Shown here piece after piece: positions 6,241-25,116 of a DNA stretch of 64,000 nucleotides. The notes beneath the pieces were generated by a model that did no database searches, was not told the origin of the DNA, and was given only the letters and a program-made list of their open reading frames with translations. The position numbers and the translations under genes were made by a program. The stretch spans positions 1 to 64,000 of the forward strand of contig JAQZDA010000005.1 in the NCBI GenBank assembly GCA_028751075.1, in the 5' to 3' direction. Each line of letters opens with the position of its first letter. Position 1 is the stretch's first letter. The stretch is from Euryarchaeota archaeon Ods02 (lineage in GTDB: Archaea > Halobacteriota > Halobacteria > Halobacteriales > Halorutilaceae).

Positions 6241-6246
6241 TGTCAA

Positions 6247-6369
6247 CCCCGCAGTAGAAAACTCGTATTCCCCACTTAGTTTTTGATTTTGAAGGCGTAT
6301 ACTAACCTTTTAAATTGAAGTATACATAAGGTCGCAAACATTTTTGTTGTAGTATCCTATACTTCCGAT
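6247..6369. promoter_or_regulatory. Divergent promoter region shared by both copies of the vWA/lipoprotein module
   Basis: This AT-rich spacer separates the vWA gene (minus) from the lipoprotein array (plus). The stretch 6305-6360 is nearly the same as 22371-22428 in module B, including an unbroken identical run of about 25 bases that contains GCAAACATTTTTGTTGTAG. The element TTTAAATTGAAG (TTCAATTTAAA on the other strand) is a candidate TATA box for the vWA gene. Noncoding conservation of this kind points to shared regulation, or to a recent duplication. Confidence 0.6.
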
Positions 6370-7032: not shown

Positions 7033-7035
7033 AAA

Positions 7036-7698: not shown

Positions 7699-7704
7699 AA
7701 ACAG

Positions 7705-8364: not shown

Positions 8365-8370
8365 ATAGAA

Positions 8371-9037
8371 ATGCCGCGCAGAAGAGGGGTAATCAAGAAG
8401 ACAGCTTTAGCGACCATCACCGTTCCAGCATTCGGCTGTATAAAACTCCCTCGTGAAGGGGACCCAGCCAAACCACCAGAAGACCAAGACCGGCCATGCT
8501 GGCAGAACATCCAAGACGAAAGAATCGAACTAGAGCCGTTCTTCGACCCAGGTCGGGAAGACGAGATGGTGCTTTCAGAAGAAGAGATGCATTCTGTGTA
8601 CGACAAATACGACGACGAAAACTACCCTGAATACAAAGCCTACCTCGACACGGTAGACAACTCAGTCACCGTACTCTTCAACGCATATGTCCACCATACA
8701 GTAGACGGAGCAAAAACCCGCTACAACGAAAACAAAGAAAGCTACGAAGACCCAGATTACCTTCACCGGATTCGCCGACCAAGCCATAAGACACGACGAG
8801 GGAGATCACGCCGAGATTACCATAAGAGTATCCAACGCAGTAGGACACGTCATCAGCTACGTACCAGAAGAAGCACCAGAAGACCCTGATGAAAGACGAA
8901 CCACGCCAAGCGGACGGATCTTGGTATTCGCAGAACATCTTCGTGACTACTGGGCAGGCACCAGCAGCTACAAAAACCAACCCGGGTTCTGCCGAGAAGA
9001 AGTCAAAGAACTACAACAACCAGACGAAGCCGGATGA
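8371..9037 (+). pseudogene. Tandem Tat-lipoprotein paralog A4, interrupted by a +1 frameshift
   Basis: The first 129 codons encode a normal family member (MPRRRGVIKKTAL, lipobox C23, class-two segment IKLPREGDPAKPPED). At 8755-8760 the sequence GATTACC replaces GACACC of the close relative B3, one base too many, and the frame breaks (as read, it stops at 8889). Skipping one base near 8757-8758 restores TFTGFADQAIRHDEG onward, with SNAVGHVISYVP, DYWAGTS and PGFCREE intact to a TGA at 9035-9037. The undamaged second half shows the break is recent, a sequencing error, or bypassed. B4 breaks at the same place. Confidence 0.8.
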
Positions 9038-9051
9038 CTGAGTAGAGCCGG

Positions 9052-9786
9052 TTACCCCATCTTCCGCGCGAACGCGATGAACGCGGTGTGTGGCACGGTG
9101 TCGTGTTCGGGGCGGGCGGGGTAGCTGCTCCATTCGCGGCGGCCTATCTCCACGGTCTCCGAGTGTTCGAGCTCGTATTCTTCGAAGCTGTCGTGGCAGT
9201 CCCGTACCTGTTCGAAGACGGGGCAGTAGCATACGACGTAGCCGCCGCTTCGGACGGCTTCCGCCGCCGGCTCCACGGCTTCCTCGAGATGCATCATGTC
9301 GAGGAAGACGAGGTCGACGTCTTCGACGGTGAAGCCTTCTTCCTTGACGTCGCGGTGGTGGACGCTTACGTTGTCCGCGCCCGCTGCTTCGACGTTGTCG
9401 CGCGCGGTTTCGACGAACTCCTCCCGTACTTCGTAGCTGTCGACCTCGTTTACGACGTTCGCGAGCGTGAGCGCGGTGAACGCGCTTCCGGTGCCTGCGT
9501 CGGCGACCCGGCTCTCGCTGCCGACGCCGGTGCGTGCGACGACGTAGCCGAGATCCTCCTGCGGCGGCGTCTGCGTCCGCTGCTCCAAGCGGTGGCGGAA
9601 CACCTCCTCGAGATCGGGTTTCACCAGCCGGAACTCCTCGCCGACGTGGGTCTCGACGGTGGAGCCGTACTCAGCGGCGGTGGCTTCCTCCGAAAGCACG
9701 CCTTCGTGTAGCTCCACCCGTGTGCCGCGTTCACGGAGGTAGGTGTTGTCGTCGCCGACGAGGAGGACGAGGTCGTCGAACTCCAT
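9052..9786 (-). CDS. trmI: tRNA (adenine-N1)-methyltransferase, TrmI family
   Basis: 244 residues from ATG 9786 (MEFDDLVLLVGDDNTYL). An upstream TTG gives three more residues but has no better signal. The N-terminal beta domain is followed by a Rossmann methyltransferase with the SAM motif VADAGTGSAFTALTLAN and the catalytic-region block DLVFLDMMHLEEA. Archaeal TrmI methylates A57/A58 in the T-loop of tRNA. The first 58 bases of the gene reappear as a scar at 11553-11610. It sits tail to tail with the lipoprotein array, 14 bases from the end of A4. Confidence 0.93.
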   Translation of the reverse strand: MEFDDLVLLVGDDNTYLRERGTRVELHEGVLSEEATAAEYGSTVETHVGEEFRLVKPDLEEVFRHRLEQRTQTPPQEDLGYVVARTGVGSESRVADAGTGSAFTALTLANVVNEVDSYEVREEFVETARDNVEAAGADNVSVHHRDVKEEGFTVEDVDLVFLDMMHLEEAVEPAAEAVRSGGYVVCYCPVFEQVRDCHDSFEEYELEHSETVEIGRREWSSYPARPEHDTVPHTAFIAFARKMG

Positions 9787-9986
9787 GCACGGCAAAGGGA
9801 GGCGCGGGTGTTAGAACCACCGGAAAAGAGGTGCGGCGATTATATACCCCGGTTCTGGGAACTCGAAGATGCAGGGCAGACTAACTGACGCTCCTACTCC
9901 CTATCTCACAATCGACGGTCGATGTTCTTCGCCGACCATCAGAGCGCTCCTGATATCGTCCTCGGCGCCGCCGGCCCCCCGGCCCC

Positions 9987-10058
9987 GCTCTCGTCCACCA
10001 CCGCGTCCCTGTCTATCTCGTCGCCGCTACTCCGACCCGAAGATTCCATCGCATGGTC
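9987..10058 (-). pseudogene. Remnant of the 3' end of an FMN-dependent dehydrogenase gene
   Basis: On the minus strand this stretch reads DHAMESSGRSSGDEIDRD then AVVDES. It aligns with the C-terminus of the intact dehydrogenase at 25113-26282 (DLAMGLSGRSSVGEIDRS then AVVHES). No start or flavin-binding part is present. It is one of two such tail fragments near here and sits 84 bases from the 3' end of the lipoprotein gene at 10142. The rest of the 9787-10141 gap holds no gene that I can support; the plus-strand open frames there look like chance. Confidence 0.7.
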
Positions 10059-10141
10059 TAATCCCGAACGGAAGGAGAGGTAATTCCATTCAAAGCCTGA
10101 GACTCAGACTTCATGGAGCTAGGAGCTCAATCTCCGAATCT

Positions 10142-10642
10142 TCAGTCTTCGGCGTCTATACCTTCGAAAGGCGGGTCATTGTGCTTGGGATGTTCCTCAG
10201 GAACCCTGCGTTCCTCACCACACACGTCCATGTCCACAGGAGTACTCATCTCCGTGCCTACTAGCGCAATGTTACCATCGTCGTCGACTGTGATGCTAAG
10301 ATGCCTTCTACTGCAGTCGACACTCCAGTAGTACCTCCCGGAATCGAGCACCTCGGAACTCCGAATCTCAATCTCAACTTCATAAAGACCTGCTTCATCC
10401 ACAACATCCTCGAAAACACCCCTGACAGCCTGATCTTGCACTACGGAGGCTGAACCGGAGAACACCTCCCCGCCCCCTTCGAACACCTGAACTTCGACGG
10501 TAACATCTTCACCGTACTCGGAGGTCACGTCGACACCCACAGGTTCCGGCGGATCATACGCAGTGTTACGGCTATGTAGACATCCGCCAGAGAGAACCGC
10601 GGCCGAAACCCCCATGAACTCCCGACGGTCGATTCCTGTCAT
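10142..10642 (-). CDS. Tat lipoprotein, first of a tandem pair
   Basis: 166 residues. DRREFMGVSAAVLSGGC is a twin-arginine signal running into a lipobox (C21), so the protein is probably anchored to the outer face of the membrane. The mature part looks like one beta-sandwich (VDVTSEYGEDVTVEVQVFEG, GLYEVEIEIRSSEV), with two cysteines in YYWSVDCSRR and MDVCGEERRVPEE. The neighbour at 10828 is a clear paralog over its whole length. I recognise no domain. The pair lies between duplicated ends of dehydrogenase and trmI genes, so it arose by local duplication. Confidence 0.85.
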   Translation of the reverse strand: MTGIDRREFMGVSAAVLSGGCLHSRNTAYDPPEPVGVDVTSEYGEDVTVEVQVFEGGGEVFSGSASVVQDQAVRGVFEDVVDEAGLYEVEIEIRSSEVLDSGRYYWSVDCSRRHLSITVDDDGNIALVGTEMSTPVDMDVCGEERRVPEEHPKHNDPPFEGIDAED

Positions 10643-10721
10643 AACTATCGATATTCTGTCTCAAAGGCTCCAGAGTAAAAAACCTACGTCGATTTGGCCC
10701 TTCCTACCGAGATGAAGCATC

Positions 10722-10754
10722 TCAGACCTCGCTCTCGTGCGCCACGGCGTCGAA
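10722..10754 (-). pseudogene. Second, shorter remnant of the dehydrogenase gene 3' end
   Basis: The minus strand reads FDAVAHESEV followed by TGA, matching the very end (IDRSAVVHESEV-stop) of the dehydrogenase at 25113-26282. The 16 bases GACCTCGCTCTCGTGC are identical to that gene. It lies about 75 bases beyond the 3' end of the lipoprotein gene at 10828, a placement like that of the first remnant beside the gene at 10142. It is short, but the shared stop codon makes chance unlikely. Confidence 0.5.
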
Positions 10755-10827
10755 GCCAGTCTCCTACAGACTGTTACGACCGACAGAACCATCCGCAGGG
10801 TTCAAGTCCGGTAATTCTCTGTATTCT

Positions 10828-11322
10828 TCAGTCTTCGACCCCTCCCCGTTGAGGAAACTCATCGGGAACCCGTCGCTGCTCACCGCAAGCGTCAACCTGA
10901 GGTTCGACCTGGATTGTAGTTGCCCCATCAATATTCCCCTCGGCGTCGATGTCGATAACGAAGTTTCTGGAGGTGCAGCTAACACTCCAGTAGTAACTAC
11001 CGGAGTCTATAACGTCTGAATCACGAGTCTCGACCTCAACCTCATAAATTCCAGCCTCACTCACGACATCCTCGAACGTCCCGCTGACATCCTGAGGCGC
11101 TATGGTGGTTGAATCAGAGAAAACCTCCCTGTCGTCTTCGAAGACCTGAACACCCACGGTGACTTCTTCAGGGTATTCAGATACTTCTTCAACGTATTCG
11201 GATCTCACATCGATATCCACCGGGTCCGGCGGATCAGAAGCGGTGTTCCGGCTATGTAGACAGCCGGTAGAGAGAACTGCGGCCGAAACCCCCATGAACG
11301 CCCGACGGTCAATCCCGGTCAT
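10828..11322 (-). CDS. Tat lipoprotein, second of a tandem pair
   Basis: 164 residues, paralogous to the gene at 10142-10642: twin-arginine and lipobox DRRAFMGVSAAVLSTGC (C21), CLHSRNTASDPPDPVDIDV, a beta-rich middle, and the same paired cysteines in YYWSVSCTSR and VDACGEQRRVPDE. It carries an extra copy of an SEYVEEVSEYPEEV-like block near residue 42, which looks like a small internal duplication. Surface-anchored, function unknown. Confidence 0.85.
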   Translation of the reverse strand: MTGIDRRAFMGVSAAVLSTGCLHSRNTASDPPDPVDIDVRSEYVEEVSEYPEEVTVGVQVFEDDREVFSDSTTIAPQDVSGTFEDVVSEAGIYEVEVETRDSDVIDSGSYYWSVSCTSRNFVIDIDAEGNIDGATTIQVEPQVDACGEQRRVPDEFPQRGGVED

Positions 11323-11482
11323 AAGTATCTATGTATTCTACCAGTTCTCGATTATACTTTGGGTGCAGCTACTAACTTCGTCAATGAAGCACCAACTCCA
11401 CCAACAAAACCTCTACGTTTCATTTTTTATCCCTATGGCAGGTAATTCCACACATTCGAGGAACCAAAAACTTACGCCATAT

Positions 11483-11620
11483 TTAGTCCGTCTTAGTAGA
11501 TTGAAATAATAGACGGGACTTCGAACACATGTGCAATGCGAGCGCCACCCTAGTGCCGCGTTCACGGAGGTAGGTGTTGTCGTCGCCGGCGAGGAGGACG
11601 AGGTCGGTGAATCCCTTCAT
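11483..11620 (-). pseudogene. Remnant of the trmI 5' end
   Basis: The minus strand from ATG 11620 reads MKGFTDLVLLAGDDNTYLRE then RGTR, and after that loses similarity and stops at 11483. Bases 11553-11610 match 9722-9779 inside trmI with a single mismatch by eye. This truncated copy marks the far border of the duplicated segment that holds the two lipoproteins. The rest of the 11323-11756 gap is AT-rich with no supported gene. Confidence 0.75.
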
Positions 11621-11756
11621 CTACCTCCTCCGTCGGCGGCCGTGGTGTTAGGGATGTCGGAGTTCCGTCGGTAGAGGTAGGTCTCAGGGTGATTCGGCTG
11701 TGGACTGCGGTGGCGAAAGAGAAACGTGAAACACGTGGACGCTTTACACCGGTGTG

Positions 11757-12044
11757 ATGACCGAAGGAGTCTGGCGGAAGCGGGTGCGGCACCTGTTGTT
11801 GGTCGTGGGCGCAGTGCTGCTTGCGCCGTTGTTCTTCCTCAATCTGGACTCCGCTGCAGGGCTAGCTGTAGCTGGAGCGGGGCTACTGATGTTGATGACG
11901 GCGTTGGTTCTCTGGAAGCAAGCCGCAGACCGAGAGAGGAACAGGCGGAGAGACCTGCTCGCGGACGTCGGCGGGGAAGCCGACGTCGCCCCGGAGAACG
12001 GAGCGCTGCCAAGGAGGGATCCGTTTGAAGACGGTGACGGGTGA
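11757..12044 (+). CDS. Small two-helix membrane protein of unknown function
   Basis: 95 residues from ATG 11757 (an overlapping GTG lies directly before it). Two hydrophobic helices, residues about 11-31 and 34-53, are followed by an Arg-rich then acidic cytoplasmic tail (ADRERNRRRDLLADVGGEAD). I do not recognise the family. Its 3' end overlaps the start of the next gene by 20 bases, so the two are probably translated together. Confidence 0.7.
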   Translation: MTEGVWRKRVRHLLLVVGAVLLAPLFFLNLDSAAGLAVAGAGLLMLMTALVLWKQAADRERNRRRDLLADVGGEADVAPENGALPRRDPFEDGDG

Positions 12045-12747
12045 TCCTCACGAGCTCCTGGACGCGTTCGAACGCAGGTACAGGAGCCAGTCGACCCTGG
12101 ACGAAGTCTGCAGCGTCGAGAAGTACGACGAAGAGATCACGAGCCACCGAGACCGTCGATACAGTCAGATAGGCGTAAGGACGAACTTCCCCGTCGAAGT
12201 CGTCGAACGATGGGAGCCTGGTTTCGTCGCTCGTGAGGTCGTCGACGGCTTCGAACGCAGCGAGATAGGGTATGTCGCATCGCAGGTTACGGAGTCCCAC
12301 TCCTGCGAACGCGTCGACGCCGGGAACCCGAACGACCTCCTGGAGGTCGCCGCCGAAGAGAACCTCAGTCATCTGCTGGTGCCGATGGACCACGGATTAC
12401 TGAAGCAGCTACGGGATAGAGATGTGGTTTCGACACGGAAATCCGACGGAGCCAGCGTCGTCGAAGCCGGCCTCGGTGGCTCGCTCGAGCTCCATCTCTC
12501 GGATGGACAAGAGGTCGTCGCCGTCGCCGACGACACGGTGAACCTGGTTCAGAAGCACGGTGAAGACGCGTCACCGCCTGCGTTCGTTCACTTCGACGAG
12601 GCGAACCTGAACTACGCTAGAGAGTTCATGGTGTACTTCGGCAGCGAGGTCCGAGAGGTGAACGGTGAACGTTTCTTCGACCTGATGTACCGCGTGGTTC
12701 TGTCGGAGCCGGAGGTCGTAGGTGTCGCAGTCGAGTTCGAGTTCTGA
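12025..12747 (+). CDS. Conserved-looking protein of unknown function
   Basis: 240 residues from TTG 12025. GGAGG at 12013-12017 is well placed for this start (a GTG at 12034 is the alternative). The protein is soluble and acidic with no signal peptide. Segments such as YGYVASQVTESHSCERVDAG-like text near residue 76 and HLLVPMDHGLLKQLRDRDV give no family that I can name. Overlap with the upstream membrane protein suggests that they act together. Codon use and acidity support a real gene. Confidence 0.65.
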   Translation: MKTVTGDPHELLDAFERRYRSQSTLDEVCSVEKYDEEITSHRDRRYSQIGVRTNFPVEVVERWEPGFVAREVVDGFERSEIGYVASQVTESHSCERVDAGNPNDLLEVAAEENLSHLLVPMDHGLLKQLRDRDVVSTRKSDGASVVEAGLGGSLELHLSDGQEVVAVADDTVNLVQKHGEDASPPAFVHFDEANLNYAREFMVYFGSEVREVNGERFFDLMYRVVLSEPEVVGVAVEFEF

Positions 12748-12825
12748 ACGGTCGAAACTGTATAGACGGTAGAGTTCGGTCGACGCACGGCTGCCACCCC
12801 GTTAGGCCACTCCCCGAAACACCCT

Positions 12826-12843
12826 CTCGTGCGGTTGCACGAG
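12826..12843. other. Stem-loop (7-bp perfect stem, GGTT loop)
   Basis: CTCGTGC, loop GGTT, GCACGAG. It lies between the convergent 3' ends of the gene ending at 12747 and the minus-strand gene ending at 12962. It could serve as a terminator or RNA-processing hairpin. No T-run follows directly. Only the symmetry supports it. Confidence 0.3.
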
Positions 12844-12961
12844 CTACGTTTTCACTTCGTGGAACCTCCCACTTAACTCAACGGATGTTGAACTACTGAG
12901 AGATCGTTCAAAAAATGCGTCGGTGTCTCGGAGTAGCGCTGCCGCGGAGTAGCATCAGCAA

Positions 12962-13693
12962 CTAGATCTCGACGCCTTCGAAGTGACGGGCGTCACATCG
13001 GTATCGCTCGTAGATCTCCTCCGTCCAGGCGACGGCTTCCGGCGACCTGAAGAACAACGCTCCTTCGACGCGGCCGCGGTCGTCGTACACGACTATGCAG
13101 GAGCGGTCTCCGTCGAGTACGGCGTGTCCGAACGGGAGCTCCTCCTCCGTCACCAGCACCTCCATACCGTGCTCCAGTGAGGAGTGGAACAACTCGCCGT
13201 AGTTCTCCGCGAGCTCCCTGAGGACGTCCTGCTCCACCACGAACTCCGCGTCAAGATCGTTCTCCCGGATCATCTCGTCGGTCGCGGAGACGTACCGATG
13301 TAGGATAGTGGGAGCGAGGCCGCGTATCTTCGACGCTCTATCTATCTCGGTCTCTAACTTGTCGATAGGTCGTTGGGGGGCGTGGCGTTTCGGGAGAACC
13401 GGTCGCGCGTCCTCCAGAACCTCCGTGGGCACGTCCAAGCGCTCCCATAGCTCGGAGGCGTCGGAGATACGCTGCATCTTCCGGTAGTTCTCCAGCAACA
13501 GCCTACCCGTCACAGTGAGACTGTAGTCGTGGTCGTCGACGATCCCGTGCCCGCGCAGCTCACGTATCGCCTTGTACACCATGCTCTCGGAGACGTCGAG
13601 CTCCTGCGCCAGCTCACGTTTACCCCTGCATCCGTCCTCTATAGCTTCTACGTACTCCCTGCGGCTACACAGGACCTCCACCACGTCCGTCAT
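12962..13693 (-). CDS. Winged-helix transcriptional regulator with methanogen-AR-like (DUF1724) domain
   Basis: 243 residues from ATG 13693 (MTDVVEVLCSRREYV). An upstream ATG at 13741 would add 16 hydrophobic residues (AEIFYIVIVKVLW) that overlap a TATA-like stretch, so I prefer the inner start. The N-terminal HTH (GKRELAQELDVSESMVYKAI then RELRGHGIVDD) is followed by a C-terminal sensor-like domain ending in RVEGALFFRSPEAVAWTEEI. This pairing is frequent in haloarchaeal and methanogen regulators. The target is unknown; the divergent small exported proteins and the synthetase gene next door are candidates. Confidence 0.75.
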   Translation of the reverse strand: MTDVVEVLCSRREYVEAIEDGCRGKRELAQELDVSESMVYKAIRELRGHGIVDDHDYSLTVTGRLLLENYRKMQRISDASELWERLDVPTEVLEDARPVLPKRHAPQRPIDKLETEIDRASKIRGLAPTILHRYVSATDEMIRENDLDAEFVVEQDVLRELAENYGELFHSSLEHGMEVLVTEEELPFGHAVLDGDRSCIVVYDDRGRVEGALFFRSPEAVAWTEEIYERYRCDARHFEGVEI

Positions 13694-13773
13694 CCAGAGA
13701 ACCTTCACGATAACGATGTAAAAGATTTCCGCCGAATCCATCGACGGACAACGCCTTCGACGCGGTGACGGAG

Positions 13774-15738
13774 CTATCTCGCCTGCTCCAGCTCCTCCAG
13801 CGCCGACGGGTTCTCGATAGACGACAGGTCGCCGAGGTCCTCGCCCTTGTACGTCGCCTCGACGGCGCGACGGATGATCTTCCCGCTCTGCGTGAACGGA
13901 AGCTCGTCGACGAACAAGACCTCACGCGGGCGGAACGGCTTACCAAGCTCCTCACCCACCTGCTGCCGGAGCTCCTCCCGGACCTCGTCCGACTCCTCCG
14001 CGTCGTCCTCCAGGACGACGTAGACGACGACGGCGGTGCCCTTCGTGTCGTCCGGCGCGCCGACGGCTGCAGCCTGGTTCGCGGCGTCGTGGTCGACTAC
14101 CGCGCCCTCGACCTCGGCGGGACCGACCTTCCTGCCGGCTACGTTCAAGGCGTCGTCGCTCCTGCCGTGGAGGAACCAGAAGCCGTCGTCGTCCTTCTGC
14201 GCCCAGTCACCGTGGTTCCACATGTCCGGCCACTTCGACCAGTACTCCTCGAGATACCGTTCGTCACCGCTCCACAATGACTTCGTCATCGACGGACAGC
14301 TGTCGCGCGCGACGAGGTAGCCGCGTTCACCTGTGTCCGCGATGCTTTCACCGTCTTCGTCCACTATGTCGATGTCCATACCGAGGCCTGGACCTCCGAG
14401 GGTGCAGGGCTTCAGCGGCTGCGTCGGCATCGGCATCAGGAAGCAGCCGCAGATCTCGGTTCCGCCACTGATGTTGATTATGGGGGCTTCCTCGCGGCCG
14501 ACGTTCTCGTAGAACCACTGCCAGCTCTCGGTGTCCCAGGGTTCACCGGTGCTGCCGAGCAACCGCAGACTCGATAGATCGTAGCCCTCCACCCAGTCGT
14601 CTCCGTGCTTCCGGAGCGCGCGTATGGCGGTCGGCGAGATGCCGAACTGCGTGATACCGTGTCGGTCTATCATCCGCCAGAACCTGTCGGGTTCCGGGTG
14701 GTCGGGGGCGCCCTCGTACATGAAGATGGTTCCGCCGAAGTGATGGTTGCCGATCAACGTCCACGGCCCCATCATCCAGCCGATGTCCGACACCCAGAAG
14801 AACCGGTCGCCGGGCTTCTGATCGAAGCCGAAATGGATCTCCTTCGCACACTGCGTCAGCACGCCGGCGTGCGTGTGGACGATGCCCTTCGGCTTCCCCG
14901 TGGTTCCGCTGCTGTACAGGAGCATCGACTCCTGATCGCTCGGCAGAGACTTCGTCTCGTACTCGTCGCTCTGGGGTTCGACGGCGTCAGTCCACCACTC
15001 GTCCTGGCTGCTGTCCCACGGGATATCCGCATCCAGCCGGCTGTAGACGATGCAGTGTTCGACGCAGTCGGTCTCCTCGATGGCTTCGTCCGCCGTCTCC
15101 TTCAGCGTTATCTCGCCGCCCCTGCGCTGGAAGCCGTCACCCGTGAACAAGACGCTGCTCTCCGCGTCCTCGAGACGGGTGACGACGGCGTCGGTGGCGA
15201 ACCCGCTGAAGATAGGTACGGCGACCGCTCCGACCTTGAAGCAGCCGTACAGGATGGATATGACCTCCGGCACCATCGGCATGTACAGCGACACCGTGTC
15301 ACCGGTGTCGACGCCGCGCTCCTCCAGCGCGTTCGCCACCTTGTTCGACTGCCTGTGTAGCTCGTGATACGTCAGCTCCCTGATCTCTCCGTCCTCCGCC
15401 TCCCAGATACAGGCGACCTTGTTCCGGCGTTCCTCGGTGACGCCTGCGTGCCGGTCGACGACGTTGTGCGCGATGTTGAGCTCGCCGCCGGGGTACCAGT
15501 CCGTGAACTGCGGACCGTCGCTGTCGTCCCTGACCGCGGCGTAGGGCTCGTAGAACTCGACGTCGAGGTAGTCGACTATCTCGTCCCAGAACCAGTCGAC
15601 GTCGCCGCAGGTGCGGTCGATGAGCTCGTCGTAGTCGTCGATGCCGTGCTCCTGCATGAACCTGTAGACGTTGGTCGACTCCACGAACTCCCTGCTGGGT
15701 TCGTGGACGACCTCGTCCACCTCCTCAAGTCCCTCCAT
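13774..15738 (-). CDS. AMP-forming acyl-CoA synthetase (acetyl/propionyl-CoA synthetase family)
   Basis: 654 residues, the usual length for Acs-type ligases. Shown are the adenylation loop YSSGTTGKPKGIVHTHAG, the N-terminal block WYPGGELNIAHNVVDRH, the hinge region GRSDDALNVAGRKVGPAEVE and the catalytic lysine region TQSGKIIRR. It activates a short carboxylate with ATP and CoA. It is clearly distinct from the acetyl-CoA synthetase at 54265-56220, which has the more canonical VDDVVNVSGHRLGT hinge. The substrate here may be propionate or another short acid. It lies alone between a regulator and exported proteins. Confidence 0.9.
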   Translation of the reverse strand: MEGLEEVDEVVHEPSREFVESTNVYRFMQEHGIDDYDELIDRTCGDVDWFWDEIVDYLDVEFYEPYAAVRDDSDGPQFTDWYPGGELNIAHNVVDRHAGVTEERRNKVACIWEAEDGEIRELTYHELHRQSNKVANALEERGVDTGDTVSLYMPMVPEVISILYGCFKVGAVAVPIFSGFATDAVVTRLEDAESSVLFTGDGFQRRGGEITLKETADEAIEETDCVEHCIVYSRLDADIPWDSSQDEWWTDAVEPQSDEYETKSLPSDQESMLLYSSGTTGKPKGIVHTHAGVLTQCAKEIHFGFDQKPGDRFFWVSDIGWMMGPWTLIGNHHFGGTIFMYEGAPDHPEPDRFWRMIDRHGITQFGISPTAIRALRKHGDDWVEGYDLSSLRLLGSTGEPWDTESWQWFYENVGREEAPIINISGGTEICGCFLMPMPTQPLKPCTLGGPGLGMDIDIVDEDGESIADTGERGYLVARDSCPSMTKSLWSGDERYLEEYWSKWPDMWNHGDWAQKDDDGFWFLHGRSDDALNVAGRKVGPAEVEGAVVDHDAANQAAAVGAPDDTKGTAVVVYVVLEDDAEESDEVREELRQQVGEELGKPFRPREVLFVDELPFTQSGKIIRRAVEATYKGEDLGDLSSIENPSALEELEQAR

Positions 15739-15882
15739 TAGTTGTTCACCAGGCTAGGTAAACCGAGGGCATCGTATTAGTTCCTTTCCTACGGAGGTAC
15801 CGGAGCCATGGCTCTCGGGCGGAGACACAGGGAACGCGGTCGGGCAAGGAAAGAACCGAGAGGTGACCTTGAACCTGCTACC

Positions 15883-16518
15883 TTACTCCTCTAGCTCCAC
15901 GTCTCCATCGGAGTCCTCGACCTCGACGGTGAACTCGTCTCCTTCACGGTCTTCGACTTCGTCGATCTCCAGGGTCTCGAGGTCGTCGGCGTGCGCTACT
16001 CCGTCGACTTCGGGGTCGTTCACTGGTTCGAACGCTACGACCGAGGGGTCGTCGACGTCCACGTCTTCGGCTTCGACGACGAAGCCGTCGCTGCCGGCGA
16101 ACGTTGAACGCGATACCTCGGCTGCGTCGAAGCTGTGGCTGTGGTCGCCCTCGACGGCGGCTACGGGTACGTGGTAGTGGTCGGCTTCGCCTTCGTAACT
16201 GTCAATCCGGGGTTCGGCTTCCGAACCACTTCCATCCACCCCCTCCGCCTCTACTTCGAGGCGGACAACGTCACCGTCTTCTACTTCGTCGAGCTCACCG
16301 TCCGCTTCCTGACGGACACTCCATTCGACGTCGAAGGGTCCTTCACCGGATTCACCAGCTTCGACCTCCCACGACTCGACGTCTTCGGCGTCGACCTCAT
16401 GGGTTTCTAGCTCTAGCTCCTGCGGCTGTTCCACTGCTGCTGCACCCGCTGCCGCTGCCATCGCTACTGCGACGACGGCTGCGGCGGCGAGCAAGGTGTA
16501 ACGTGTTATCTCCGTCAT
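15883..16518 (-). CDS. Small exported acidic protein of unknown function
   Basis: 211 residues from ATG 16518 (MTEITRYTLLAAAAVVAVAM), which opens with a classic signal helix ending in AAAGAAAVEQ. The longer open frame upstream runs through inverted repeats and is rejected. The mature protein is more than a third Asp/Glu, with no cysteines seen and beta-like repeats (VDVDDPSVVAFEPVNDPEVD). A 13-base inverted repeat lies directly upstream (16520-16572). Not recognised. It faces the exported-protein and regulator pair at 16794-17919 and shares its style. Confidence 0.7.
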   Translation of the reverse strand: MTEITRYTLLAAAAVVAVAMAAAAGAAAVEQPQELELETHEVDAEDVESWEVEAGESGEGPFDVEWSVRQEADGELDEVEDGDVVRLEVEAEGVDGSGSEAEPRIDSYEGEADHYHVPVAAVEGDHSHSFDAAEVSRSTFAGSDGFVVEAEDVDVDDPSVVAFEPVNDPEVDGVAHADDLETLEIDEVEDREGDEFTVEVEDSDGDVELEE

Positions 16519-16519
16519 G

Positions 16520-16590
16520 GTTTCATCTGAAGCCACTTGGTGCGCGGCTTCAACCAGGACTTCAGATGAAACACCTGAAAGAGGTTTCAG
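16520..16590. promoter_or_regulatory. Nested inverted repeats between two divergent exported-protein genes
   Basis: GTTTCATCTGAAG at 16520-16532 is the exact reverse complement of CTTCAGATGAAAC at 16560-16572. Right after it comes the palindrome CTGAAA-GAGG-TTTCAG (16575-16590). The first arm starts 2 bases before the ATG at 16518, so any factor or RNA fold here would control that gene. TGAAA/TTTCA half-sites of a similar kind recur at 59125-59140 and 60699-60715. Operator or leader hairpin are both possible. Confidence 0.5.
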
Positions 16591-16793
16591 AGAACCAGGT
16601 GACAACGCAGAAGGAAACGGTTTTCACCAGACGGCGTCGGAGTCGGGGTTGGAGTGTTCGGTACGCCACCCTGGTTTTAACGAGTGCTTAACGGATTTTC
16701 GACGGATTAGATGGCCTGTCGTAACGTGTTGTCAACGCGTTCCCCGGCTGTTTCTGGAAAGACCGATAAACCAGCGCTTCTAACACACCGGTG

Positions 16794-17402
16794 ATGAGAA
16801 GAGGGTTCGTCGTCGCCGCCGCGCTCGCGTTCGGCTTGCTGGCCGCCGCTGCAGGAGCGGCGATTGCGCCGGCAACGGACTCCACCCCCGAGCTCCGGTT
16901 CGCGGAGGACGACGTGGTCTTCGACGACGGCGAAGAGGTTCGAACACTGGAGCTCGAACGCTCGACGGGGTTCGAGACCCTGGAGGTGTCCGCGGGCTCC
17001 ACGGGAGAGATAGACGTACGGGTGGTGGAGTCACGGGACATCGAGGACGACTTCAGCTTCGAGGGCTTCCAGAGCAACCGATCTGACGACGGATTCGACG
17101 AGGAAGACCTCGAGTTCGAAGCCGAGTACAGGTTCGAGATAGAGTCAGGTGAGGAAGAGGTCGAAGGAACCGACGACGTCGGAGGCGGCGACGTCGTACG
17201 CGTGTACCGGGAACCCGTCGACGTCAAGGTCGAGGTCGTGGACTCGGAAGACGTACAGGAGATCGAGGTGACGGAGTCCGGTGAACCCGAAGAAGGACAG
17301 GAGGTCGCCTTCGAGGTCGATGTCGCAGAAGAACACCAGATCGAACACGACGAAAGCGTGGAAGATAGTGCTGATGGTGGAGGTGACGGCGATGACAGAT
17401 AG
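16794..17402 (+). CDS. Exported acidic protein, partner of the membrane regulator downstream
   Basis: 202 residues from ATG 16794 (an adjoining GTG is ignored). The signal peptide is MRRGFVVAAALAFGLLAAAA up to about residue 25. The mature part is extremely acidic, with beta-like VEVVDSEDVQEIEVTESGEP and an Asp/Gly-rich end. Its stop overlaps the next gene, a membrane-anchored winged-helix protein, by 11 bases. An exported protein coupled to a membrane regulator suggests surface sensing, but this is inference. No family recognised. Confidence 0.75.
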   Translation: MRRGFVVAAALAFGLLAAAAGAAIAPATDSTPELRFAEDDVVFDDGEEVRTLELERSTGFETLEVSAGSTGEIDVRVVESRDIEDDFSFEGFQSNRSDDGFDEEDLEFEAEYRFEIESGEEEVEGTDDVGGGDVVRVYREPVDVKVEVVDSEDVQEIEVTESGEPEEGQEVAFEVDVAEEHQIEHDESVEDSADGGGDGDDR

Positions 17403-17919
17403 GGGTTTCAGCCGCGTCGACGTGCTCGCGGGCGTCGTGCTCGCGGCGGCGCTCGCCGTCCTCGGCGTCAAGCTCTTCAACCCCACTCCAATCGTTATAT
17501 CCGTGGAAGGAGGGTCGACGGAGGTCGAGCAGATACCCGGGTTCTACACCCGCGGCGACGTCCTCTCCATCGCCGCGGCAGCCGTCGTCGCAGGAGGCTC
17601 CACCATCTACCTCCTGCAGCCGTACCTCGACAGCGAGACATCAGACCCGCAGGAAAGCTCCGGCGACGTAGACGACGCCGAGGACCTCGTGGAGATACGC
17701 CGCAGGGAGCTCGAAGAAGGCGATGTATCTCTCAAGGACGGCGCCGAAGAGGTCTACGAATCCGTGCTCGAAGCAGGCGGCGAGGTCCGGCAGAGCAAGG
17801 TCGTCGACTACACCGACCTCTCGAAGTCACACGTCAGCCGGAAGCTCGACGTCCTCGAGAGCAAGGACCTCGTGGAACGCCGACGGGACGGCATGGGGAA
17901 CGTCGTCCAGCTGAAGTGA
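17392..17919 (+). CDS. Membrane-anchored winged-helix regulator
   Basis: 175 residues from ATG 17392 (MTDRGFSRVDVLAGVVLAAA). Helix one (residues about 11-27) and helix two (about 55-77) bracket a roughly 25-residue outside loop. The C-terminal 75 residues form a cytoplasmic winged helix: EEVYESVLEAGGEVRQSK then DLSKSHVSRKLDVLESKDLV and the wing ERRRDGMGNVVQL. Haloarchaea have many such membrane-bound HTH proteins. Translation is coupled to the exported protein before it. Its own upstream palindromes at 16520-16590 are possible targets. Convergent with vWA gene B, with only 3 bases between the stops. Confidence 0.85.
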   Translation: MTDRGFSRVDVLAGVVLAAALAVLGVKLFNPTPIVISVEGGSTEVEQIPGFYTRGDVLSIAAAAVVAGGSTIYLLQPYLDSETSDPQESSGDVDDAEDLVEIRRRELEEGDVSLKDGAEEVYESVLEAGGEVRQSKVVDYTDLSKSHVSRKLDVLESKDLVERRRDGMGNVVQLK

Positions 17920-17922
17920 CCT

Positions 17923-20900
17923 CTATGGCGGGCCTGCGCCCTGTCCGGGGTTGCCGTCGTCGTGACCAGGGGGGCCATCGGAGCCATCGTGTCCGGGTGG
18001 TATGTCATCCAACCCTGGAGGCGTGCCACCGTGTCCCGGTGGACAGTCCTCAGGACCCTCGGGGTCGCCGAGTGTGTCGGGTGTGTCGGGTGGGAGCGGG
18101 CAGTCGTCGACCACACGGACCTCTAGCTCGTCGACGGTGACGCCGCTGTCGTCGACGAATCCACCTGCCTCCGCGGTGTAGTTGCCAACCGCTGCGTCTT
18201 CGGGTGCAGAAACCGTGACGGGGACCTCCACCGTCTCGCCGGACTCCACGAGGTGCGAGCGGTCGAACGAGAGATACGAGCTCGACAACGTCTCGTTACC
18301 GGAGTCGTGACCTAGCTCCGACACAGATACCTCGACGGAGCGGATGCCCAGAAGCGCTTCAGGCTGTATCGTCAGAGTGGCTTCGGTCTCGCCACCTTGC
18401 TCCACCACCGGCGTCTCCGGCTGTGTTAGTGCGACGGGGGCGGCGTGCTCCGCCACCCACGAGACGGTCTCCTGTCTCTCGACGTGTCCGTCCTCGTCGT
18501 GAGCGGTTACCGTGGCTTCGTAGGTGCCCGAAGCGTTGTCGTCGAGACCGACGGTCGCACGGTAGACTCCGTCTTCCACCTCGTCGAACACGACCGTCTC
18601 CTTGGAGCCGTCGGGAGCCTCCACCCGGGCTTCCACGTCGGCGTCTCCGACGGCTTCGGTGCCGTACAGCTTGGCGGTGACGTCGGCTTCGCTGCCAGCG
18701 TAGTAGCGGTCGCTCGACGTGGCGACGTCGAGCTCTACCAGCGAGTTCGCAGTCACCCGGGTTTCGAACTCGACCGCTTCGTCTCTGCCGTCTATCTCGT
18801 AGCTCCAGGACCCTGCTTCGGGGTCGGTGAGCCTGTACACCGTTCTGTCGTCGGTCACCGACACCTCGACGTCGGAGTCGGCTCCTGGGTCGGCGATGGA
18901 GCCGTTCGGCCTGTAGATACGTACTTCCCTGTCCTCCGCTGCCACGGAAGCCGTCTCGATTCCGGAATCCATGACATCGACGTCGCCCTCCTCCGTGGCT
19001 TCGGCTTCGTCGTCGATGTCGCTTCTGTCGTCCCTGACGTCTATCTCGTGTCGCTCGGCGACGTCCTCCTGCCGCGTGGACTCTACCTGTAGCGACGACG
19101 TCTCAGTCTGTAGCTCCTCGACTGCGACGTCGAGGATCACGTTCGAGGCTTCGTCGTCGACCTCGAACGACCCTCCGAAGACGTCGTCGACCCCTATCTG
19201 TCCGGTGACGAGCTTCACTAGCTCGGACGCGGTGAACTCCTGGATTAGCTCGATGAAGTCCTGAACTATCTCGTCTCGGGTGAAGCTCTCGGTGACCTGC
19301 GAACAGTCAGAGGCATCCGCAAGCGAACGCTTGAACTCGAAGTCCGCGCCGTCACCCAGGGTGTTCGTCTGCAGGCAGATACCCTCGGGGTTCATGCGTT
19401 CGCGGATGGCGTCACGCATCGATGACTCGCTGGGCCCGCGGTTGCGGCCGCCGTCCGACATCAACACGACGTTCTGGTGGACGCCGTCGGGTGCCTTCTC
19501 GACCTCGTCGATGCCGTCGAACAGGCCGGCGCCCATGTTGGTGAGGCCGCCGGCGTTCATGCTGTCGATAGCCGCCTCGGCGTCGTCCCTGCCTTCGTCA
19601 AGCCGCGTCAACCCCTGCAGCACCGTGGAGCCGCTGGAGAACTCGACGATGGCGACGTAGTCGGAGTCGGACTTACGTTCGAGGTAGCCGTGGGCGGCGT
19701 CCTTCGCCGCCGACATACGGGTGCCGCCGCCGACGTCCCTTGCGCTCATGCTCCCCGAGACGTCGACGACGATAGCCGTCGCCGTCGCACCGGCTTCACC
19801 GGGCTCCATGTAAGCCAGGAGATCGTCCTCGGACGCCGACAGCGTCTGGTCCTCCGTCTCAAGCGTCACCGTGACGTCGTACGAACGGGCTTCGTCCTTG
19901 TCCGGTGCAGTGAACCGTAACGTGGCTTCACCGCGTAGGTCGGAGTCGCGCTCCAGACCATCGTACTCCGCCCACGCCGACACCTCCTCGCCTTCGACCT
20001 CCACCGACCAGTCACCATCTCTGACCTCGTCGGACGATAGACCGGAGACCACGAGATCCACGGAGACGGACCGCGGATCCTCCACCGTGCCAGCGTTCAC
20101 CTGTGCCTCGGTCGTTATATCGAGGGATGGTTCGGGTAGGCCGTCGGTCACCCTGAGGCTAAGGTCCTTGGAGTCGGTCTCGTACGTTTCAGGGTAGAGA
20201 GACAGAGTTGCGTCGAAATCGAAGTCGCGTATTGCCTCTGATCCTTCTTCGGCCACGTCAGACTCCGTGATTCCGACAGTGGACAACGGCACCTCTGCAC
20301 CCGCGACGTTCCTCGGATAGATGGAGTTCACGTAGAACGAGTAATCGGCTTGATGACCTGCATCTGTCGCGAGATCCAGGGTGAAGTCGTGAGGCTGCAT
20401 CCCCGGGTTGACGACGTTCACGCCTATCAAGTCGTCCGCCTCCGTCCACCCTATCAACTCGTCGTCGTGAGGCATCTGGTTCGGGGCGACCACGGCAGGT
20501 GGGGCTTCGACGCAGTTCACGTCGCCGGCAGCTTCGCAGACGTCGAAGAAGCCGGGTTCGTCACCGTCCTCAGGGCGGACCACCGACTGCTGTATCCTGT
20601 CTCCAACGTCCTCACGGATACCCCAGAACTCGTTCTCCTCGTCCGAGAACTCGCCGTCGACCTGAGCAATGTCGGGGAACAACCGACGTCCGTCTCCATC
20701 CTCAGCCCACTCACCCGGGTCGTCGAACTTGGGGCCTACTTGCTGGGGTATGGTTCCTTCGGTCGCGCCTGTGTCACTGGGTATCAGAGGTACTAACTCT
20801 TCGAATGGCTGAGGATACGTGTAGACGTTCCCGTCGTAGTCAGACCATGCTTCATCCCCGGTCAGAACCGATATCTCGTAGGCTTCATCGGTTGACCGCT

Positions 20901-22305
20901 GGATATCGGCGTCTTGGTGAGCCCAGGTTGTACCCGTGTCTTCGTAGGCAACAGGGTCGAGGTAGTTCAGACCTTCATCAGATAGAAAACTGCGGTCGGT
21001 GTTACCAGGGTCATCGAGGTACTGGTCCTGATAGATGTATCTGGGTTCCAGATCCCCATCCGACGGTGCTCTGACCTGTCTGTTGTCGCTCTGGTTAACT
21101 CCGAAGAAGTTCGAGTGAGCGCCTTCGGCCGGGTAGATCACCGGTCTTGCATCCTCTCGCTCGACGTGCTCCCACTTCCTGTACTCGCCGCCCATGTGCT
21201 GCTGCGCCAGCACCCACTCCGGCTCACCGGTGTCCTGATCGAACAGGATGTAGAATGGTTCCTGATCACCGGTATGTGCAGCGATCCTGTCAGCACTGAC
21301 CAAACCTTCTTCGACGGATATCAACGGTTTAGGGTCGTGGACGTAGACCATCCAGTACCCGATAGCTGTGTAGGTATCCTCTTGCATCTCAGAGGAGTCC
21401 GTGTCGGGGAACCGGTCGACGTAGGAGTCATCGGGTTCGAAGTCGACGTCCTCCACGAGGTTAGAGTAGACCGTCGGCGGATAGACGTCGGACTCCGACG
21501 GATCAAGGTGCGCCAACGAGTCGCGCTCCGGAGGCTCCGATACACCGTACCCCGAACTCCATCCACCCCATTCGCCAGTGAGGGCACGGGGGAGGATGAA
21601 CTCGAAGTAATCCTCTTCATAACCCACCTTCGACTCGTGATCTATCACCGACACGTCATACAGGTTAGCGTTGTCCAGCAGAACCTCCTCATCTTCATCC
21701 ACAACCCCCCTCAGCTCCGAGTTCTCGAACAACGCCTCGTACCGCGTCGGATGATACAGCTCATCCTCATGAAAACGGAGGACAGGGGCGTAATTTTGCA
21801 TCACATCGAAGCGAGGTTCGCCCAATACACCCTCAGCTGGCTCCGCCTCGATTACTCTTTGGTAGGTGTACGTCTGTCCGTCAACATTGACTTCCAGCTC
21901 GACCAGAGTATTCACGGCCTCCGTAACCCGTAGGGCGGTCGTTCTTCCGTCATGTGGAGGTACGTCCACTGTGTCAGATACAGAACCCTCGTGGAGCAAT
22001 TCGGCTTCTGAGTTGTTTACTGACCAAGTGAACGTTGCATCTCTATCTTCTAAGAGTTCCTTTGGAAACCCGAGCGTCAACGTCTCACCTACCGTAACCT
22101 CTACCCTTTCCTCCGGATCTGTCCTAGGTATGATATCTATCGGCTCCTCAAAAACGTCTTGACCCGAGACATCATCCGAAAACTCTACATTCGGCTCCGT
22201 CGAACCGTCTGAAACCGCTACACCTGAAATTACGATTGTGAGAAGAGCGAAGGTTATCGCTACTATAGCTATGCTCCTGTACGGTCGTCGTGTGCTACTC
22301 CCCAT
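17923..22305 (-). CDS. Giant exported protein with VPS62-like and von Willebrand A domains (module B)
   Basis: 1460 residues, paralog of the gene at 1981-6240 over its whole length. Start MGSSTRRPYRSIAIVAITFA (signal helix about 11-32). The VPS62-like part (APVLRFHEDELYHPTRY, HTGDQEPFYILFD, AEGAHSNFFG) is the best conserved. The vWA metal site D848-V-S-G-S lies in IVVDVSGSMSARDVGGGTRM. It carries an insertion after the vWA domain (ERHEIDVRDDRSDIDDEAEA) absent from copy A. The tail DDCPLPP to CPPGHGGTPPGLDDIPPGHD is again Cys-flanked and Pro/Gly/His-rich. Divergent from array B through a conserved spacer. Likely surface or released; function unknown. Confidence 0.88.
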   Translation of the reverse strand: MGSSTRRPYRSIAIVAITFALLTIVISGVAVSDGSTEPNVEFSDDVSGQDVFEEPIDIIPRTDPEERVEVTVGETLTLGFPKELLEDRDATFTWSVNNSEAELLHEGSVSDTVDVPPHDGRTTALRVTEAVNTLVELEVNVDGQTYTYQRVIEAEPAEGVLGEPRFDVMQNYAPVLRFHEDELYHPTRYEALFENSELRGVVDEDEEVLLDNANLYDVSVIDHESKVGYEEDYFEFILPRALTGEWGGWSSGYGVSEPPERDSLAHLDPSESDVYPPTVYSNLVEDVDFEPDDSYVDRFPDTDSSEMQEDTYTAIGYWMVYVHDPKPLISVEEGLVSADRIAAHTGDQEPFYILFDQDTGEPEWVLAQQHMGGEYRKWEHVEREDARPVIYPAEGAHSNFFGVNQSDNRQVRAPSDGDLEPRYIYQDQYLDDPGNTDRSFLSDEGLNYLDPVAYEDTGTTWAHQDADIQRSTDEAYEISVLTGDEAWSDYDGNVYTYPQPFEELVPLIPSDTGATEGTIPQQVGPKFDDPGEWAEDGDGRRLFPDIAQVDGEFSDEENEFWGIREDVGDRIQQSVVRPEDGDEPGFFDVCEAAGDVNCVEAPPAVVAPNQMPHDDELIGWTEADDLIGVNVVNPGMQPHDFTLDLATDAGHQADYSFYVNSIYPRNVAGAEVPLSTVGITESDVAEEGSEAIRDFDFDATLSLYPETYETDSKDLSLRVTDGLPEPSLDITTEAQVNAGTVEDPRSVSVDLVVSGLSSDEVRDGDWSVEVEGEEVSAWAEYDGLERDSDLRGEATLRFTAPDKDEARSYDVTVTLETEDQTLSASEDDLLAYMEPGEAGATATAIVVDVSGSMSARDVGGGTRMSAAKDAAHGYLERKSDSDYVAIVEFSSGSTVLQGLTRLDEGRDDAEAAIDSMNAGGLTNMGAGLFDGIDEVEKAPDGVHQNVVLMSDGGRNRGPSESSMRDAIRERMNPEGICLQTNTLGDGADFEFKRSLADASDCSQVTESFTRDEIVQDFIELIQEFTASELVKLVTGQIGVDDVFGGSFEVDDEASNVILDVAVEELQTETSSLQVESTRQEDVAERHEIDVRDDRSDIDDEAEATEEGDVDVMDSGIETASVAAEDREVRIYRPNGSIADPGADSDVEVSVTDDRTVYRLTDPEAGSWSYEIDGRDEAVEFETRVTANSLVELDVATSSDRYYAGSEADVTAKLYGTEAVGDADVEARVEAPDGSKETVVFDEVEDGVYRATVGLDDNASGTYEATVTAHDEDGHVERQETVSWVAEHAAPVALTQPETPVVEQGGETEATLTIQPEALLGIRSVEVSVSELGHDSGNETLSSSYLSFDRSHLVESGETVEVPVTVSAPEDAAVGNYTAEAGGFVDDSGVTVDELEVRVVDDCPLPPDTPDTLGDPEGPEDCPPGHGGTPPGLDDIPPGHDGSDGPPGHDDGNPGQGAGPP

Positions 22306-22436
22306 TTGTCAACCCCTCTGTAGAAGACTCAAATTTGTGACTTAGTTCTTGATTTTCAAAGCGTTTACGAACCCTTTAAATTGAAGTATACAGATGGTCG
22401 CAAACATTTTTGTTGTAGTACCCTGTACACCCATTT
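22306..22436. promoter_or_regulatory. Divergent promoter region of module B
   Basis: The AT-rich spacer between vWA gene B and array B. The part 22371-22428 repeats 6305-6360 of module A almost base for base, including CCTTTAAATTGAAGTATAC and the GCAAACATTTTTGTTGTAG run, while the surrounding 60 bases have drifted more. Selective conservation of the middle suggests shared promoter or operator elements for both divergent transcripts. Confidence 0.6.
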
Positions 22437-23105
22437 ATGCCGCGCAGAAGGGGGGTACTCAGGAAGGTAGCGTTAGCAGCTATCGCAATACCAGCATCCG
22501 GGTGCATAAGACTCCCTCGCGAAGGAGACCCAGCCAAACACCCAGAAGACAGAGACCGACCATGCTGGCAGAACATCGAAGACGAAAGAATAGACCAAGA
22601 ACCCTTCTTCGACCCGGAAAGAGAAGACGAGATGGTAATACCAGAAGATGAGATGCACTTCCAGTACGACGAATACGATGACGAAGACTACCCAGAATAC
22701 AAAGCCTATATCGATACAGTAGATCACTCAAATACCGTACTCTTCAAAGCAAACGTCTACGCTACGGTCGAAGAAGCGATAGAAAGCTACAGCGAGGTCC
22801 ACGAGTCCTTCGAAGATCCAGATAGTTTCGGCGTCGGTGACGAGGCAATGGAACAAGAAGCTCGGGACGGGAAATTCGCTGAGATGGTATTCAGGAAATC
22901 CAACGCAGTAGGACACGTAATCAGCTACATACCCGGCGAAGCACCCGAAGACCCAGACGACAGAAGATTCCGGCCAAGAAGCCGAGTATCGAGATACTCT
23001 CGACAACTCCGCGACTACTGGGGCGGCACCAGCGACTACAAAGACCACCCCGGATTCTGCAGACAGGAAGTCATGGACCTACAACAACCAGACGAAGATG
23101 ACTGA
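22437..23105 (+). CDS. Tandem Tat-lipoprotein paralog B1
   Basis: 222 residues. Twin-arginine start MPRRRGVLRKVAL, lipobox ASGC (C23), then the class-two segment IRLPREGDPAKHPED shared with A4, B2 and B4. The family cysteines are in RPCWQNI and PGFCRQE. It differs from the others in the middle (MEQEARDGKFAEMVFRKSNA). First gene of array B; B2 starts 6 bases after it. Probably membrane-anchored outside the cell. Function unknown. Confidence 0.9.
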   Translation: MPRRRGVLRKVALAAIAIPASGCIRLPREGDPAKHPEDRDRPCWQNIEDERIDQEPFFDPEREDEMVIPEDEMHFQYDEYDDEDYPEYKAYIDTVDHSNTVLFKANVYATVEEAIESYSEVHESFEDPDSFGVGDEAMEQEARDGKFAEMVFRKSNAVGHVISYIPGEAPEDPDDRRFRPRSRVSRYSRQLRDYWGGTSDYKDHPGFCRQEVMDLQQPDEDD

Positions 23106-23111
23106 ACAATA

Positions 23112-23786
23112 ATGCCACGCAGAAGGAGGGTACTCAAGAAGACAGCGCTAACAACCGCAGCTGCCACACCATTATCCGGCTGTATAAAACTCCCCCGTGA
23201 AGGAGACCCGGCCAAACCACCAGAAGACCGAGACAGACCCTGCTGGCAGAACATCCAAGACGAAAGAATCGAACTAGAACCATTCTTCGACCCGGAACGA
23301 GAAGACAAAATGGTGATCCCAGAAGACGAGATGCACTTCCAGTACGAAGAGTACGACGACGAAGACTACCCAGAATACAAAGCCTACATCGACACAGAAG
23401 ACTACTCCAACACCATACTCTTCAAAACAAACGTCTACTCCACTGTCGACGAAGCAAAATCCCATTACAATGTAACGAAACAAAGCTACGACGAACCAAA
23501 CACCTTCGGAACCGGAGACCAAGCCGCGAAACAAGATGACGGAGACCACGCTGAAACAATCATGAGAGTCTCCAACGCAGTAGGGCATGTAGTTAGCTAC
23601 GTACCCGACGAAGCACCAGAAGATCCAGAAGACAGAAGGTTCCAGCCGAGGACACGGGCGACAGGTTATGCACGTGAGCTTCGCGACTACTGGGGCGGAA
23701 CCAGCAGCTTCGAAGACCACCCCGGCTTCTGCCGCGAAGAAGTCAAAGCACTCCAACAACCAGACGAACCAGACGAAAACGAGTGA
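23112..23786 (+). CDS. Tandem Tat-lipoprotein paralog B2
   Basis: 224 residues, the longest copy. Start MPRRRRVLKKTALTTAAATP with lipobox LSGC (C24), class-two segment IKLPREGDPAKPPED, and family cysteines in RPCWQNI and PGFCREE. The C-terminus has one extra acidic repeat (QQPDEPDENE). The 5' half is nearly identical to A4 in the IKLPREG region, evidence of mixing between the two arrays. B3 starts 6 bases later. Confidence 0.9.
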   Translation: MPRRRRVLKKTALTTAAATPLSGCIKLPREGDPAKPPEDRDRPCWQNIQDERIELEPFFDPEREDKMVIPEDEMHFQYEEYDDEDYPEYKAYIDTEDYSNTILFKTNVYSTVDEAKSHYNVTKQSYDEPNTFGTGDQAAKQDDGDHAETIMRVSNAVGHVVSYVPDEAPEDPEDRRFQPRTRATGYARELRDYWGGTSSFEDHPGFCREEVKALQQPDEPDENE

Positions 23787-23792
23787 AAACAG

Positions 23793-24458
23793 ATGCCGCG
23801 CAGACGGGGGGTACTCAAGAAGACCGTGTTAACGGTTACTGCGATATCAGCGTCCGGCTGCCTCATCGCCGACGATGCAGGCGACCCCGGAGTCGCACCA
23901 GAAGACAGAGACCGACCATGCTGGCAGAACATCGACGGAGAACGCATAGACCAAGAACCATTCTTCGATCCAGGCCGGGAAGACGAGATGGTGCTTTCAG
24001 ACGATGAGATGCATTCTGTTTATGACTCGTACGACGACGAAGACTATCCGGAATACAACGCATTCATCGACACGGTAGACAACTCAGTCACCGTACTCTT
24101 CAACGCATATGTCCACCACACGGTAGACGGAGCAAAAACCCGCTACAACGAAAACAAAGACAGCTACGACGACCCAGACACCTTCACCGGATTCGCCGAC
24201 CAAGCCATAAGACACACCGGCGAAGACTATGCCGAGATGACAATCAGAGTCTCCAATGCAGTCGGACACGTCATCAGCTACGTACCAGACGAAGCACCCG
24301 AAGACCCAGACGACAGAAGAACCACACCAAGAATGAAGGTATTTGGGTTCGGCCAAGATCTCCACGACTACTGGGCAGGAACAAGCGACTACAAAAATCA
24401 ACCAGGCTTCTGCAGACAGGAAGTCATGGACCTACAACAACCAGACGAAAACAACTGA
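23793..24458 (+). CDS. Tandem Tat-lipoprotein paralog B3
   Basis: 221 residues. Start MPRRRGVLKKTVL, lipobox ASGC (C23), class-one segment LIADDAGDPGVAPED as in A1-A3. The middle (NAYVHHTVDGAKTRYNENK) is almost identical at DNA level to A4 (about 8660-8755 against 24081-24176), and the last 90 bases match A1. It is therefore a mosaic of array A sequences inside array B. All family blocks and both cysteines are intact, which makes it the reference for placing the break in A4. Confidence 0.9.
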   Translation: MPRRRGVLKKTVLTVTAISASGCLIADDAGDPGVAPEDRDRPCWQNIDGERIDQEPFFDPGREDEMVLSDDEMHSVYDSYDDEDYPEYNAFIDTVDNSVTVLFNAYVHHTVDGAKTRYNENKDSYDDPDTFTGFADQAIRHTGEDYAEMTIRVSNAVGHVISYVPDEAPEDPDDRRTTPRMKVFGFGQDLHDYWAGTSDYKNQPGFCRQEVMDLQQPDENN

Positions 24459-24461
24459 AAA

Positions 24462-25116
24462 ATGCCACGGAGAAGGGGGGTACTTAGGAAGACATTTTTA
24501 GCAGTTGCTGCCATACCGGTATCCGGCTGCATAAAACTGCCTCGTGAAGGAGAAAATCCGATTCCCCCAGAAGAAATAGATCGGCCCTGCTGGGAGAACA
24601 TAGAGGGAAAACGCATCGACCAAGAACCATTCTTCGACCCAGAAACCCAAGCCGAGATGGTTCTCGATCTTGAAGATGTAAGCGACGTATACGAGCAGTT
24701 TACTGACGAGGATTACCCCGAATTCGACGCATTTATCGACACCAGAGACAACTCCAACATAGTCCTCATAAACGTAGAAGTCCCCAGAGAAGTATCAGAC
24801 TCAATCGACTACTACAACGAAACCAAACGGAGTTACGACTCCCCCCCAACCACTCCATAGAGGGGATGAATCAGCAATCCAGAACCTGGACGAGATGGCA
24901 AAGGGAGTCCTAAGACTCTCCAACGCAGTTGGAGAAGTCATATCCTACGTCCCCGAAGACCCCAGGCCCGCTGAAGAACGATATTTCACCCCCGAGCAAC
25001 GAATAGATTGGACCTGTAGAATAATGGTCGATTACTGGGGAGGAACCAACAGATTCGACGACCACCCCGGCTTCTGCCGCGAAGAAGTCAAAGCACTACA
25101 ACAACCAGAAAGCTAG
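24462..25116 (+). pseudogene. Tandem Tat-lipoprotein paralog B4, interrupted by a +1 frameshift in a C7 tract
   Basis: The start MPRRRGVLRKTFL and lipobox C23 are normal. The frame runs to a TAG at 24858-24860 because of a run of seven C at 24841-24847. With six C the reading continues as QPLHRGDESAIQNLDEMAKG, then VLRLSNAVGEVISYVP, DYWGGTN and PGFCREE to a TAG at 25116, restoring the full family layout. This is the most diverged copy (many substitutions in the first half). The break falls at residue 127, the same alignment position as in A4. Phase-variable slippage, decay or sequencing error are all possible. It overlaps the convergent dehydrogenase gene by 4 bases. Confidence 0.8.

Follow-up and report, generated by a model that had tools for sequence, protein, structure and literature searches.

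Layout of the lipoprotein gene arrays

The window, i.e. the whole stretch of 64,000 nucleotides that was analysed, is contig 34 of a 2.27-Mb genome bin (56 contigs, 89.85% complete), and its gene content appears to be of haloarchaeal character. It contains two tandem four-gene arrays on the plus strand, A1-A4 (6370-9037) and B1-B4 (22437-25116), each of which is divergent from one large minus-strand gene coding for a VWA-domain protein. The partner of array A (1981-6246) encodes 1421 amino acids, that of array B (17923-22305) 1460 amino acids. Since the VWA proteins show 61% identity to each other and each gene is divergent from an array, we conclude that the whole unit, VWA gene plus array, has been duplicated. 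The intergenic regions between VWA gene and array (6247-6369 and 22306-22436) have a near-identical block in common, TTTAAATTGAAGTATACA...GGTCGCAAACATTTTTGTTGTAGTA, which is likely to be a duplicated divergent promoter. On another contig, a third stretch (L022, G000:C46:11238-11864; 33% identity) is related to the C-terminal region of the VWA proteins.

Six of the eight array genes are intact: A1 (6370-7032, 220 amino acids), A2 (7036-7698, 220), A3 (7705-8364, 219), B1 (22437-23105, 222), B2 (23112-23786, 224) and B3 (23793-24458, 221). The last gene of each array, A4 (8371-9037) and B4 (24462-25116), is frameshifted. The six intact proteins of 219-224 amino acids have a conserved C-terminal half in common, and a twin-arginine start (MPRRR) and the lipobox G-C are invariant in all six, as in Tat-type lipoproteins. 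No Pfam family was matched by any of them, and an AlphaFold2 model computed from the six copies (pLDDT 30) was too poor for a fold search. Searches of the bin itself located members of the lipoprotein arrays on contig 34 only; neither an array ortholog nor a sister strain was detected in plasmids, genome contigs (two scans), viral contigs and 59 + 392 genomes. Three further genomes of the order each have a weak single-copy relative of the lipoprotein, and the SNAVG/SNGVG block is clear in two of these. Third-position GC is 0.48-0.60 in the array genes, 0.72-0.74 in the VWA partners and 0.84-0.90 in neighbouring housekeeping genes; the low values of the array genes suggest foreign origin or unusual selection.

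Position and products of the two frame breaks

According to the first-pass annotation, the last gene of both arrays requires one base to be skipped, at 8755-8761 in A4 and at 24841-24847 in B4. The assembly has GATTACC and a C7 tract, respectively, at these places, and the frames beyond both breaks are open to the expected stops, at 9037 and 25116; the N-E-x-K-x-S-Y block was also correctly placed ahead of both breaks. All possible skip positions were then scored against the six intact paralogues. A4 is homologous in frame 0 over codons 1-129 (8371-8757) and in the next frame over 8759-9037, where a TGA ends it; its break, where it has one base more than B3, lies in 8751-8770, with the best-scoring skips at 8754-8761. 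B4 is homologous in frame 0 over codons 1-126 (24462-24839) and in the next frame over 24862-25116, with a TAG stop at 25114-25116; its break, which is known only to about 20 nucleotides, lies in 24839-24858 together with the C7 tract. The two breaks were originally described as occupying the same alignment position, which is true within about ±7 codons but not at single-base resolution. At 25113-25116, B4 and a convergent gene on the minus strand, which codes for an FMN-dependent dehydrogenase (25113-26282), have overlapping stop codons.

In frame 0, A4 continues after codon 129 with 43 foreign, arginine-rich codons to a double stop, giving a product of 172 amino acids. B4 continues after codon 126 for about six residues to a TAG at 24858-24860, giving 132 amino acids. 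As these products are unlike, there is no truncated protein common to A4 and B4. Relative to the intact paralogues, both genes carry a frame-disrupting indel, as pseudogenes do.

The coincidence of the two positions had been considered unlikely to arise by chance, which proved to be an overstatement. For two uniformly placed breaks to fall 4-7 codons apart or less and in the same direction, P is 0.02-0.03, and the location of both in the last of four genes contributes a further factor of about 1/16, both calculated post hoc. The internal in-frame indels of the intact copies (one codon fewer in A3, one more in B3, two more in B1) cluster at codons about 124-143, and both breaks sit in this loop, the sole internal one where intact copies carry such indels. 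The coincidence becomes smaller still if mutations also arise preferentially in this loop, but not if the loop only tolerates indels. It is mildly improbable that two of eight genes should be caught shortly after breaking with loop, direction and array position all in agreement.

Independent origin and past constraint

In A4 and B3 only 5 of 149 nucleotides differ between gene positions 275 and 423 (B3 numbering; 8645-8794 in A4), as compared to 124 of 511 elsewhere (P 2e-12). Such near-identity marks this segment as a sequence-exchange tract, and the A4 break (gene position 387-388) lies within it. Since B3 is intact, A4 must have been intact at the time of the exchange and have broken later, whichever copy was the donor. 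No such tract was found in B4, the sequence at its break is unrelated to that of A4, and in the tree of the 5' parts B4 is basal to a group made up of A4, B1 and B2. The match of the A4 tract to intact B3, the unrelated sequence of B4 and the topology of the 5' tree show that the two breaks are separate events. Both an ancestral break common to A4 and B4 and a break copied by gene conversion were rejected, because the sequence flanking the A4 break matches that of intact B3 and because A4 and B4 do not group as a pair in the 5' tree. The argument of the first-pass annotation against one broken state copied between the arrays was therefore right.

Selection was estimated by fitting two-ratio codon models separately to the gene portions on either side of the break. 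Beyond the break, terminal-branch dN/dS was 0.08 for A4 and 0.03 for B4, values which are rough because the copies exchange sequence and saturation on the branch of B4 weakens the trees. Neutrality was rejected there for both genes, with 2dlnL of 5.7 (A4) and 24.4 (B4). When the final 10% of the branch was made neutral, B4 lost 4 log-likelihood units, which puts its neutral fraction below about 10%; A4 tolerated about a third, its break being dated instead by its position within the tract exchanged with intact B3. In simple pairwise estimates the far part of B4 shows somewhat greater divergence (0.41-0.61) than do pairs of intact copies, and some relaxation there is possible. Purifying selection beyond the breaks implies that they are recent, or errors, or decoded; its persistence to the present is equally expected from an error or from a decoded frameshift.

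Interpretation of the breaks

We favour, with moderate confidence, the interpretation that A4 and B4, the promoter-distal copies, each acquired a one-base insertion recently and independently of the other. In two duplicated units, each made up of a VWA gene and four tandem Tat-lipoprotein genes, the terminal gene would have been hit recently in the variable loop located after the N-E-x-K-x-S-Y block. The insertions would have arisen separately by ordinary slippage or base duplication, in B4 by growth of the C tract and in A4 by duplication of a T or an equivalent event. With six close intact paralogues left, and with no polar effect on downstream genes to be expected from a break at this place, loss of a terminal copy might be tolerated; A4 and B4 would then be newborn pseudogenes or segregating null alleles. 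That such lesions occur in this genome is indicated by an apparent DUF6069 membrane protein gene on another contig (L053:6203-6626, G000:C8), the second half of which (Pfam E 6e-9) is encoded, starting at about 6430-6450, in the next frame, a break of the one-base-extra type. Other frameshift candidates were rejected, L046 and L044 as shadow-frame artefacts and L060 as a normal overlapping gene pair. In the literature on terminal-copy decay in tandem arrays, nothing directly applicable was found.

The main rival is that the genes are intact in the organism and that an error of sequencing or assembly produced one of the breaks or both in this bin (56 contigs, 90% complete), which we regard as rather unlikely. 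A C7 homopolymer, as at the B4 break, is a classic site of indel errors; A1, however, has the same C7 string, TCCCCCCCAA, within an intact frame (6571-6577), and the A4 site has no homopolymer longer than two bases. The arrays are repetitive, A4 and B3 having identical runs of 36-52 nucleotides, but these runs are shorter than a typical short read. Selection on the parts beyond the breaks as in an intact gene also agrees with an error. On the other hand, the assembly is not rich in indels: there were no true frameshifts in about 150 kb of genome DNA covered by homology to ORFs from two other genomes, and a codon-usage frame scan, which recovered 40 of 60 (67%) planted single-base insertions, had the apparent DUF6069 gene as its single hit in coding sequence totalling about 281 kb, a base rate that holds for typical genes only because the arrays read as non-coding and the scan is blind to them. 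Two of the three known breaks fall in the 5.3 kb that the arrays occupy (P about 0.001). Uniform sequencing error is thus disfavoured, whereas an error specific to repeats or homopolymers is still compatible with the data. Unlike the arrays, the yardstick genes are conserved, and part of the excess of breaks may reflect weaker selection.

Phase variation, in which slippage in the C7 tract would toggle B4 on and off and the assembly would have caught the off state, is conceivable for B4 only: the tract is in a frame-setting position, the 3' part is intact and constrained, and long G/C runs (10-16) are present elsewhere in the genome. A4 has no repeat tract at its break, seven bases are short for a contingency locus, and the in-frame C7 of A1 indicates that such a tract is not reserved for a switch; we consider this explanation improbable. 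G/C homopolymers 9-19 in length occur more often in the sampled sequence of this genome than in the two genomes of the order with which it was compared (L059:3232, G16; L058:19416, G10; L060:4039, G11; L053:19649, C9; L055:19-115), and may represent hypermutable tracts or, for L055 close to the start of its contig, an assembly artefact. Programmed +1 ribosomal frameshifting yielding full-length protein from both terminal genes would fit the constraint on the shifted frame, and CCC-C in B4 would allow tRNA-Pro to re-pair after a +1 slip, re-pairing of this type being treated in PMC7803779 and PMC4519876. It fails at A4, where, on inspection of codon-anticodon pairing, GAT TAC C offers no P-site codon able to re-pair in +1 and there is neither a stop nor an evident slow codon. 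Moreover, downstream folding is unremarkable (z +0.9 for A4, -1.6 for B4), the two sites have no sequence in common, and the intact paralogues need no such device, all of which makes programmed shifting highly improbable. In the control region, the A1 RNA at 6751-6870, folding was better than in 200 of 200 shuffles (z -3.8). Even less credence can be given to selected truncation, with a short secreted N-terminal product of the terminal copy as the functional form. Both breaks do follow the conserved N-E-x-K-x-S-Y block and precede the SNAVG block, but neutrality beyond the break is rejected, most strongly for B4, and the products differ, A4 gaining a 43-residue arginine-rich tail and B4 about six residues. 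It is very improbable that a frame change in a fixed loop, by decoding or switching, provides each array with three full lipoproteins and one whose long or short form depends on a +1 shift or slippage. Among the options listed in the first-pass annotation, recent decay and error remain; its breaks are real in the assembly and are not one copied state, but a special mechanism shared by the two genes is not needed.

As the evidence stands, the breaks in A4 and B4 are ordinary. If real, they would show on a small scale how two duplicated arrays, between which sequence is still being exchanged, have each lost the gene farthest from the promoter, recently and in parallel. If decoded, they would add a cellular case of +1 recoding to the archaea; in a 2021 review (PMC8211752), the established cellular example from archaea is a single -1 shift, and the only +1 example, from a haloarchaeal virus, is described as apparent.

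With haloarchaeal Tat-type lipoproteins the array genes have the MPRRR twin-arginine start and the lipobox G-C in common, but here there are eight copies in two four-gene arrays. B4 resembles phase-variable poly-C/G contingency genes in that it breaks at a short C tract and its downstream frame is conserved; it differs in having a tract of only seven, and A4 has none. Genes with programmed +1 shifts (prfB, antizyme and that of the haloarchaeal virus HSTV-2, PMC8211752) are similar to A4 and B4 in the conserved downstream frame and the +1 direction, whereas A4 and B4 lack a common slippery motif, a stop codon at the slip site and a stimulator. Recent frameshift pseudogenes in tandem paralogue arrays, like A4 and B4, have a single-base indel in an otherwise intact frame, intact paralogues close by and exchange between copies. 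In contrast to such pseudogenes, the present pair, if real in the organism, involves two arrays with the break in the same loop of the same, last copy.
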